A stretch of DNA of 58,928 nucleotides from Actinomycetota bacterium (GTDB lineage Bacteria; Actinomycetota; CADDZG01; WHSQ01), in assembly GCA_009379915.1 (NCBI GenBank), contig WHSV01000010.1, positions 1 to 58,928 of the forward strand, written 5' to 3'. A program made the position numbers and the translations under genes. Position 1 is the stretch's first letter, and each line of letters opens with the position of its first letter. Shown one piece after another: positions 32,612-33,930 of this stretch. The notes below the pieces were generated by a model. It was not told where the DNA came from and searched no databases. It was given only the letters and a program-made list of their open reading frames with translations.

Positions 32612-32635
32612 CAGAGCGAGCTAAGGCATCGGGCC

Positions 32636-33553
32636 TCAGTCGTCATCGGCCATCGGAGCGAGATGACGCAGCTTGTTGGGGTTGCTGATCGCCCGGACCG
32701 TCTGCACGAGGCCGTCGGCGATGTCGAGCGAGACGACCAGCACCGGCCGCCCGTCGGCGTCGAGGAAGACCGCTCCCGGCTGGCCGTTGACCTCTAGTTG
32801 GCTCATGCGGCTCACACCCAGGCGGGCCGACGGTCTGCCGATGTTGCTGAAAAGACGGACGACCCGCTCCCGTCCATGGACCGGACGGGGGATGGCGGGA
32901 GCCCTGCCGCCGCCATCTCCGTAAGCGACGACGTCGGCGGCGAGCAGATGGATCAGTCCCTCCGTGTCCCCGCCCGCGACCGCGTCGAAGAATCGACTCG
33001 AGAGCTCTTCGCGCTTCTGGCGTGACGCCTCAAAGCGCGGCTTCTTCGCCTCGACCTGGCGGCGGGCACGGACCGCGGTCTGGCGACAGTTGTCCTCGCT
33101 CTTGCCGACTACGGCTGCGATCTCATCGTAGCCGTAGTCGAACACCTCCCGAAGGAGGAAGACGGCTCGCTCGACGGGGCCGAGGCGCTCGAGCAAGACG
33201 AGGAATGCGAGTGAAAGCGAGTCCGCGGTCTCGGCGTGCCGGGCGCCCTCCGACTCCGTGTCGGTCAGGAGGGGCTCGGGCAGCCAGGTGCCGACATACC
33301 TCTCTCGGCGCACGCGCGCCGACTTGACGTGATTGATGGCCAGTCGGGTGGTGACCGTGGACAGCCATGCCTTGGGCGACTCGATGTCCGCCCCCTTACC
33401 CGACTCGCGGTGGAACCGCAGGAACGCCTCCTGGACGATGTCCTCGGCGTCGCTTGCGCTGCTCACCATCCGGTAGGCGATCGAGAACAGCAGCGGTCGG
33501 AGGTCTTCGTACACGCTTTTCCTCTCCGTCTGTGGAGCGTTTTTGGCGTTCAT
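32636..33553 (-). CDS. ECF sigma factor, ECF41 group (SigJ-like, with SnoaL-like C-terminal domain)
   Basis: This extracytoplasmic-function sigma factor of 305 residues has region 2 (PLLFSIAYRMVSSASDAEDIVQEAFLRFHR) and region 4 (RLGPVERAVFLLREVFDYGYDEIAAVVGKSEDNCRQ). The extra C-terminal SnoaL-like domain (about 185-290) controls activity in this group in place of an anti-sigma factor. Two ECF41 marks are visible: YGDGGGRAPA (usually DGGGK) and NPNKLRHL. The gene is preceded by a TGTCACA-N16-TGTC promoter, close to the published ECF41 motif, so it should drive its own transcription. The usual neighbour, a carboxymuconolactone decarboxylase/oxidoreductase/epimerase gene, is absent. A 50-residue membrane protein lies in its place on the other strand. 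Confidence 0.92.
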   Translation of the reverse strand: MNAKNAPQTERKSVYEDLRPLLFSIAYRMVSSASDAEDIVQEAFLRFHRESGKGADIESPKAWLSTVTTRLAINHVKSARVRRERYVGTWLPEPLLTDTESEGARHAETADSLSLAFLVLLERLGPVERAVFLLREVFDYGYDEIAAVVGKSEDNCRQTAVRARRQVEAKKPRFEASRQKREELSSRFFDAVAGGDTEGLIHLLAADVVAYGDGGGRAPAIPRPVHGRERVVRLFSNIGRPSARLGVSRMSQLEVNGQPGAVFLDADGRPVLVVSLDIADGLVQTVRAISNPNKLRHLAPMADDD

Positions 33554-33566
33554 CTTCCCCGGCTAA

Positions 33567-33593
33567 GACAAGGCAGGCTTCCCATCTGTGACA
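33567..33593 (-). promoter_or_regulatory. ECF41-type promoter of the sigma factor gene
   Basis: On the minus strand TGTCACA (33593-33587) and TGTC (33570-33567) are 16 bases apart and 13 bases before the sigma ATG. The reported ECF41 consensus is TGTCACA-N16-CGTC, so 10 of 11 positions match. It implies autoregulation. Confidence 0.7.
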
Positions 33594-33616
33594 CCTCTCC
33601 CGGAATACCGAACCCG

Positions 33617-33643
33617 TGTCACAGGAAGCGGCGTCATCTTGTC
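33617..33643 (+). promoter_or_regulatory. ECF41-type promoter of the small membrane protein
   Basis: TGTCACA (33617-33623) and TGTC (33640-33643) are 16 bases apart on the plus strand. It is the mirror image of the sigma gene promoter. Together the -35 boxes form a 9-bp inverted repeat, CTGTGACAC and GTGTCACAG, around 21 bases. The downstream gene starts at 33719, leaving a leader of about 70 bases. Confidence 0.7.
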
Positions 33644-33718
33644 TCAAAGGGGCGACAGAAGAGATGTGTTTCGTTTCAGAGATCCCGAGTTGGAAGCAAG
33701 CTGAACGAGGAGGTGACC

Positions 33719-33871
33719 ATGGTGACGCCGGATAACCCGCGAAGGCGCGTGACCGTCCCCGGCTTCCTGCTGGCGATGTTGCTACTGCCACTCGGCGTGG
33801 CGTTAGCACCTGCCGGAGTTGGGATACCAATCTTCGTCATCGGCCTGGCTCTGCTAATGCCGGAGCAATGA
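33719..33871 (+). CDS. 50-residue membrane protein, likely ECF41 target
   Basis: A basic N terminus (MVTPDNPRRRVTVPG) is followed by two adjacent hydrophobic runs (FLLAMLLLPLGVALAPAGVG and IPIFVIGLALLMP), enough for one long or two short membrane helices. The ribosome site AGGAGGTGA is almost perfect and six bases before the ATG, so the small protein is very probably real. It lies downstream of the plus-strand TGTCACA-N16-TGTC promoter and is divergent from the ECF41 sigma gene, so it is the best candidate for a direct target. No family was recognised. Confidence 0.75.
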   Translation: MVTPDNPRRRVTVPGFLLAMLLLPLGVALAPAGVGIPIFVIGLALLMPEQ

Positions 33872-33892
33872 GGCTCCCACAAAGAGGGAGCC
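33872..33892. terminator. Hairpin between convergent genes
   Basis: GGCTCCC and GGGAGCC form a 7-bp stem around a 7-base loop, directly after the stop of the small membrane protein. The bldD-like gene ends 39 bases beyond on the other strand. There is no long T run, so termination is likely but weak. Confidence 0.5.
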
Positions 33893-33930
33893 GAAGGTTT
33901 GGTCGCCGGCGATCCTCCGACTCGCGCACA

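Follow-up and report, generated by a model that had tools for sequence, protein, structure and literature searches.

What does an ECF41 sigma factor control when the enzyme gene that usually adjoins it is missing, and the gene facing it across a pair of mirrored promoters encodes a membrane protein of only 50 residues? ECF41 is among the most widespread sigma groups. The locus that raises this question lies in a stretch of 58,928 nucleotides from an Actinomycetota bacterium (contig WHSV01000010.1), referred to here as the window. When ECF41 was characterized in 2012, the inducing signal was unknown and the known targets were COE enzymes only, that is, carboxymuconolactone decarboxylases, oxidoreductases, and epimerases (PMC3426412). 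A subclade whose target is instead a membrane protein of 50 to 85 residues would narrow the question of what ECF41 sigmas sense.

The sigma gene and its mirrored promoters

The sigma gene (32636..33553, minus strand) encodes a 305-amino-acid protein in which sigma2, a WLPEP linker, and sigma4 are followed by a SnoaL-like C-terminal extension of about 100 residues carrying the motifs DGGG and NPNKL. It scores 343.6 bits against TIGR02957 (SigX4/SigJ; cutoff, 323) and 327.9 bits against PRK09636. The domain matches are Sigma70_r2 (residues 15 to 80), Sigma70_r4_2 (116 to 166), and SnoaL_2 (187 to 269), the last at 27.5 bits against a cutoff of 27. WLPEP in the linker is a defining ECF41 feature (PMC3426412); here it occupies residues 90 to 94 and is invariant among the paralogues described below. 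The sole PDB match is SigJ of Mycobacterium tuberculosis (5xe7; E 7.8e-47), the only solved relative, which has the same architecture. An earlier note on this DNA, made by reading the letters alone, had assigned the gene to ECF41, and the curated models, the domains, the linker, and the SigJ match all agree that it belongs there. In ECF41 sigmas the fused SnoaL-like domain itself controls activity, and no anti-sigma factor is involved (PMC3426412, PMC8999054). None of the neighboring genes looks like one for an anti-sigma factor here; the small membrane protein, which we call TM50, has no recognizable domain, though it might conceivably be a regulator.

Two promoters lie in the intergenic region between these genes (33554-33718), pointing away from each other. 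That of the sigma gene (33567..33593, minus strand) reads TGTCACA GATGGGAAGCCTGCCT TGTC and has the extended -10 element TTGTCTTA; that of the small membrane gene (33617..33643, plus strand) reads TGTCACA GGAAGCGGCGTCATCT TGTC, with the extended -10 element TTGTCTCA. The spacer is 16 bases in both. From the end of the minus -10 box to the sigma ATG (33553) there are 13 bases, and from the end of the plus -10 box to the TM50 ATG (33719) there are 75. Boxes, equal spacing, and distances are therefore as they had first been read. The pattern TGTCACA-N16-NGTC matches the window at these two promoters only, with 0.07 matches expected by chance, and two matches arose in 1 of 100 shuffles of the window.

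How close are these promoters to known ECF41 targets? The consensus is TGTCACA-n16-CGTC with a spacer of N16(+/-1), and the mapped Bacillus licheniformis promoter has TGTT (Wecke 2012, PMC3426412); both this consensus and the usual COE neighbor had been given correctly in the earlier note. At both window promoters the -35 box and spacer are exact and the -10 box, TGTC, departs by a single C-to-T change, which places them, by sequence, among ECF41 target promoters. The plus leader, at 75 nt, is longer than those of its relatives (about 25 to 40 nt), and mapped leaders are 22 to 23 nt (Wecke 2012, PMC3426412).

Mirrored ECF41 promoters are themselves already known. Wecke 2012 (PMC3426412) tabulated 55 loci in which ECF41 and COE genes diverge; the motif precedes the sigma gene in 36 of them and the COE gene in 41. 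Like the window, these loci pair a sigma2-WLPEP-sigma4-SnoaL-like sigma with a divergent gene, each with its own TGTCACA-N16-YGTC promoter. Unlike them, the window has a -10 box of TGTC, within TTGTCTYA, rather than CGTC, and its partner gene encodes a 50-amino-acid membrane protein. It is this partner that is unusual. The window sigma gene has no COE gene of any of the three kinds beside it; the domain content of the neighbors (an unnamed 146-amino-acid membrane ORF, DUF3105, a BldD-like regulator, and Ku) confirms an absence remarked on earlier. Since about 34% of ECF41 genes are without a COE gene (Wecke Table 4, PMC3426412), this is no bar to ECF41 membership.

The small membrane protein and the sister loci

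TM50 (33719..33871, plus strand) is preceded by a good ribosome-binding site, GAGGAGGTGA. Its model has two helices (residues 7 to 28 and 35 to 46) at medium confidence (pLDDT 70), with about 10 residues outside the hydrophobic part, and the protein is presumably located in the membrane. The only Pfam match is a subthreshold one to DUF3040 (E 0.11). Directly 3' of the stop codon is a GC-rich hairpin, GGCTCCC-ACAAAGA-GGGAGCC (33872..33892, plus strand), a possible transcript end that folds at -21 kcal/mol (z -1.57) and has a weak T tract. A terminator scan did not call it, and as a weak hairpin only it was rejected as a classical terminator.

How did this gene pair come to be where it is? Nine relatives have the gene for the 146-amino-acid membrane protein directly next to that for the BldD-like regulator, the two running toward each other with stops -4 to 184 bp apart. 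The window has 1319 bp between the same two stops (32612..33930), occupied only by the sigma gene, the mirrored promoters, and TM50. Because the nine relatives are without this module, the sigma gene and the small gene most likely arrived together as a single unit. This two-gene unit is small enough to be transferred whole into a reporter strain.

The window is not the only such locus in its genome, a draft of 158 contigs. A search for GTCACA-N15-TTGTCTYA with at most one mismatch returned 9 genome matches, against 0 for the reversed control. Six of the nine are exact and make up three mirror pairs, each beside an ECF41 gene: the window locus and two others (C103 and C143). Candidates for further regulon members (C44 and C146) were rejected, since these matches lie inside coding genes and their number equals the chance rate. 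The C103 sigma is 80% identical to that of the window, and its mirror pair faces an MMPL transporter. The C143 sigma is 86% identical over the first 142 residues, and its mirror pair faces a cupredoxin, a DoxX-like protein, and then a protein that joins a TM hairpin to an RVT_3 domain of the RNase H-like type. The same cupredoxin-DoxX-TM::RVT_3 operon accompanies the one mirror pair found in the sister genus (G013, WHSQ01000001.1). In both genomes, the TM part of this third operon gene is a homologue of TM50, with 62 to 65% identity over about 42 residues. Among 24 genomes of the class no homologues were found besides these two, and 397 genomes of the phylum gave one doubtful match.

A fourth ECF41 gene of the window genome (C107) is classical, with CGTC promoters and an epimerase gene. 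Of the minimal ECF41 circuit that had been proposed for the window, the tiny membrane protein stands as the likely target, and its pairing is repeated in a second family described below. The word "minimal" does not stand, as the genome has three near-identical mirror loci plus a classical ECF41-epimerase locus. Given the shared promoter boxes and sigmas that are 80 to 86% identical, the paralogues of the three mirror loci are likely to cross-activate. Three such loci in one genome offer a view of how an autoregulated sigma unit might duplicate and gain new outputs.

Some details of these loci deserve mention. The C143 ECF41 gene (L010, about 1547-1972, at the contig end) has an in-frame TGA after 18 codons, which may be an assembly error, the genome being a draft. 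An NAD-binding gene farther along that contig (L010), past the end of the operon, is apparently frameshifted, through decay or assembly error. The TM hairpin::RVT_3 protein of the cupredoxin-DoxX operon (L009 2350-2970, L026 2287-2895) reads HTGGVA in place of the common HTDGGA; to the eye it lacks the first catalytic Asp normally present, and it may be inactive.

A sigma subclade and its partners

Is the window pairing an isolated case? The 80 closest ECF41 loci from GTDB served as the comparison set, and 13 of them have mirror promoter pairs, several facing an epimerase and six being in mycobacteria. The exact CGTC mirror pattern has 3 matches in 397 phylum genomes, all at ECF41 loci, and the reversed control has 0. 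Like the window, the mycobacterial loci L058, L065, L069, L074, and L082 have mirrored ECF41 promoters facing a membrane protein rather than a COE enzyme. The readable divergent ORFs there encode DoxX_2-type membrane proteins, which are larger than TM50 (about 120 to 130 amino acids), and the sigmas sit elsewhere in the tree than that of the window. The mycobacterial promoters before DoxX_2 are of the CGTC type, and Wecke 2012 (PMC3426412) makes no mention of DoxX. In Rubrobacteraceae (L071, L077, and L090), an ECF41 gene with its promoter is divergent from an apparent MFS transporter gene.

The closer parallel is a second actinobacterial family, f9. The earlier note had suggested searching other genomes for small membrane ORFs divergent from ECF41 genes, and three genomes of f9 have them: G101 (L027), G069 (L134), and G160 (L136), where mirrored ECF41 promoters face two-helix membrane proteins of 64, 66, and 85 amino acids, respectively. 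Their sigmas belong to the same subclade as that of the window; unlike in the window, the -10 boxes are CGTC and the small proteins (64 to 85 amino acids) have a longer N-terminal tail. In G101 and G069 the membrane protein gene is followed by a second small gene (L133 and L134), whose product of about 70 amino acids resembles the coiled-coil end of MerR regulators. The only Pfam match of the f9 small protein is a subthreshold one to YccF. Are these genuine genes? Between G101 and G069 there are 19 synonymous changes in 43 sites and 16 nonsynonymous changes in 122 (dN/dS 0.21; Fisher p = 5e-5), so that a genuine gene encodes the stand-alone small protein there.

The f9 proteins end in a motif like IGLPLFMFGLALM, whose TM50 counterpart is VGIPIFVIGLALLM. 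When a profile of the three f9 proteins only was run against about 8,050 other ORFs, TM50 came out on top (E 0.0029), and 0 of 5000 composition-preserving shuffles scored as high. Profile-profile comparison (hhalign) was weaker, with a probability of 32% over 15 columns, a short motif in hydrophobic sequence; for this reason, homology between TM50 and the f9 proteins is graded as likely rather than proven.

A maximum likelihood tree of 90 sigmas gathers the window sigma, those of G013, C103, and G001a, and the three f9 small-protein sigmas into one clade (support, 100/98). At two of the seven subclade loci, those with an MMPL or a VOC protein, a small membrane partner was not seen; the VOC-like gene (G001) has a TTGTCTCA promoter of its own. 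It looks as if sigmas of this subclade typically have a small two-helix membrane protein as their divergent partner. Because the second family has the same switch facing a similar protein, the pairing appears to be a real side branch and not a one-off accident. In the simplest history, the ancestral partner would have been a small membrane hairpin protein. In the window's family, this protein may have become part of an RNase H-like fusion encoded in an operon (C143 and G013) or been replaced by an MMPL gene (C103) or a VOC-like gene (G001), while at the window locus it would have stayed small, the locus having been duplicated within the family. The literature searched, the coverage of which is incomplete, gave no earlier description of a hairpin protein family belonging to an ECF41 subclade.

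What the hairpin protein may do

We consider it probable that the locus is an ECF41 unit that regulates its own expression and that, in this subclade, has a small membrane hairpin protein as its output where a COE enzyme is usual. The SnoaL-like extension would keep the sigma low in activity until some signal relaxes it, and the relaxed holoenzyme would then fire both back-to-back TGTCACA-N16-TGTC promoters. Firing of the minus promoter would yield more sigma, a positive feedback, while the plus promoter would yield the 50-residue hairpin protein as an effector in the place of the COE enzyme. The layout is that of the promoters and autoregulation described for ECF41 (PMC3426412); the use of these two promoters by the window sigma, the autoregulation, and the effector role of TM50 are inferred.

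Could TM50 instead be debris? It might be a decaying remnant of a duplicated cupredoxin-DoxX-TM::RNaseH locus in which only the opening 50 codons of the third gene survive, with promoters that still function and a product of little or no function. TM50 does align to the N terminus of the TM::RVT_3 gene, the window promoter and the start of the leader match those of G013, TM50 evolves faster than the corresponding segment of the fused forms, and the C143 sigma paralogue has its in-frame TGA. This reading was initially preferred in its simple form and was downgraded because f9 has stand-alone proteins, which are independent, belong to the same sigma subclade, and in one pair are under purifying selection. 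The ORF itself is also intact, with no indels and a good ribosome-binding site. Its second codon positions are the best kept (5 to 6 differences versus 11 to 15 at the other positions). Constraint on TM50 itself is weak, with a core dN/dS of about 0.43 to 0.54 and a marginal neutrality test (p = 0.026 and 0.17). A search around TM50 for DNA traces of lost RNaseH or DoxX parts gave only chance matches of 10 to 14 bp. Furthermore, the N terminus of TM50 can be aligned over its length with the f9 proteins, unlike that of the fused forms, an indication that the stand-alone form dates far back. On balance, decay is an unlikely origin for TM50.

Might the hairpin protein act on the sigma rather than serve as its output? 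One idea, to which we would give only an outside chance, is that a family of tiny membrane hairpins is the dedicated partner of this ECF41 subclade and acts back on the sigma, so that 50 to 85 residues would read out the membrane's condition. It is also quite improbable that TM50 is the signal input, as had earlier been suggested with a "perhaps," whether as a membrane sensor or as an anti-sigma factor in miniature, holding or modifying the sigma. A divergent, coregulated membrane partner is indeed the arrangement of many sigma/anti-sigma pairs, and the f9 versions have their longer tail and second coiled-coil gene. However, the roughly 10 residues of TM50 outside the hydrophobic part leave a soluble portion of almost nil, regulation of ECF41 sigmas falls to the fused C-terminal domain described above, and loci of the same subclade manage without TM50, with MMPL or VOC partners.

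Finally, what of the palindrome? The 9-bp inverted repeat seen earlier, CTGTGACAC/GTGTCACAG, is present (arms at 33586-33594 and 33616-33624; loop, 21) and holds both -35 boxes, two identical and divergent copies of which give 7 of its 9 pairs automatically. In an alignment of four homologous intergenic regions, GTCACA (the -35 core) and TTGTCT (the extended -10) are invariant, while the spacers and the segments between boxes vary. Boxes and spacing are thereby kept in three homologous loci besides the window, the opposite of what would have counted against the promoters. The distance between -35 boxes across loci is 23, 23, 22, 22, 30, 11, and 24, and the -35/-10 spacing is always 16. Divergent genes with a 9-bp palindrome between them are a textbook operator arrangement, but an operator of another regulator, with an incidental or secondary promoter likeness, is highly improbable and was rejected, given that the inter -35 distance changes while each -35/-10 spacing is constant, that the -10 boxes are as strictly conserved as the palindrome, and that the palindrome is imperfect in C143 and G013. 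Being imperfect and differently spaced in relatives, the repeat is best read as a by-product of the mirrored boxes of an ECF41 unit.

Two further occurrences of the motif lie elsewhere in the genome. Past the end of the cupredoxin operon, an ECF41-type promoter (L009 1501-1527; G000:C143:6369-6395, minus strand) immediately precedes a DoxX_2 gene. TGTCACA-N16-TGTC also occurs about 36 bp upstream of a putative dnaN (L008 1501-1527; G000:C109:40651-40677), where chance or a link between sigma and replication could both apply.
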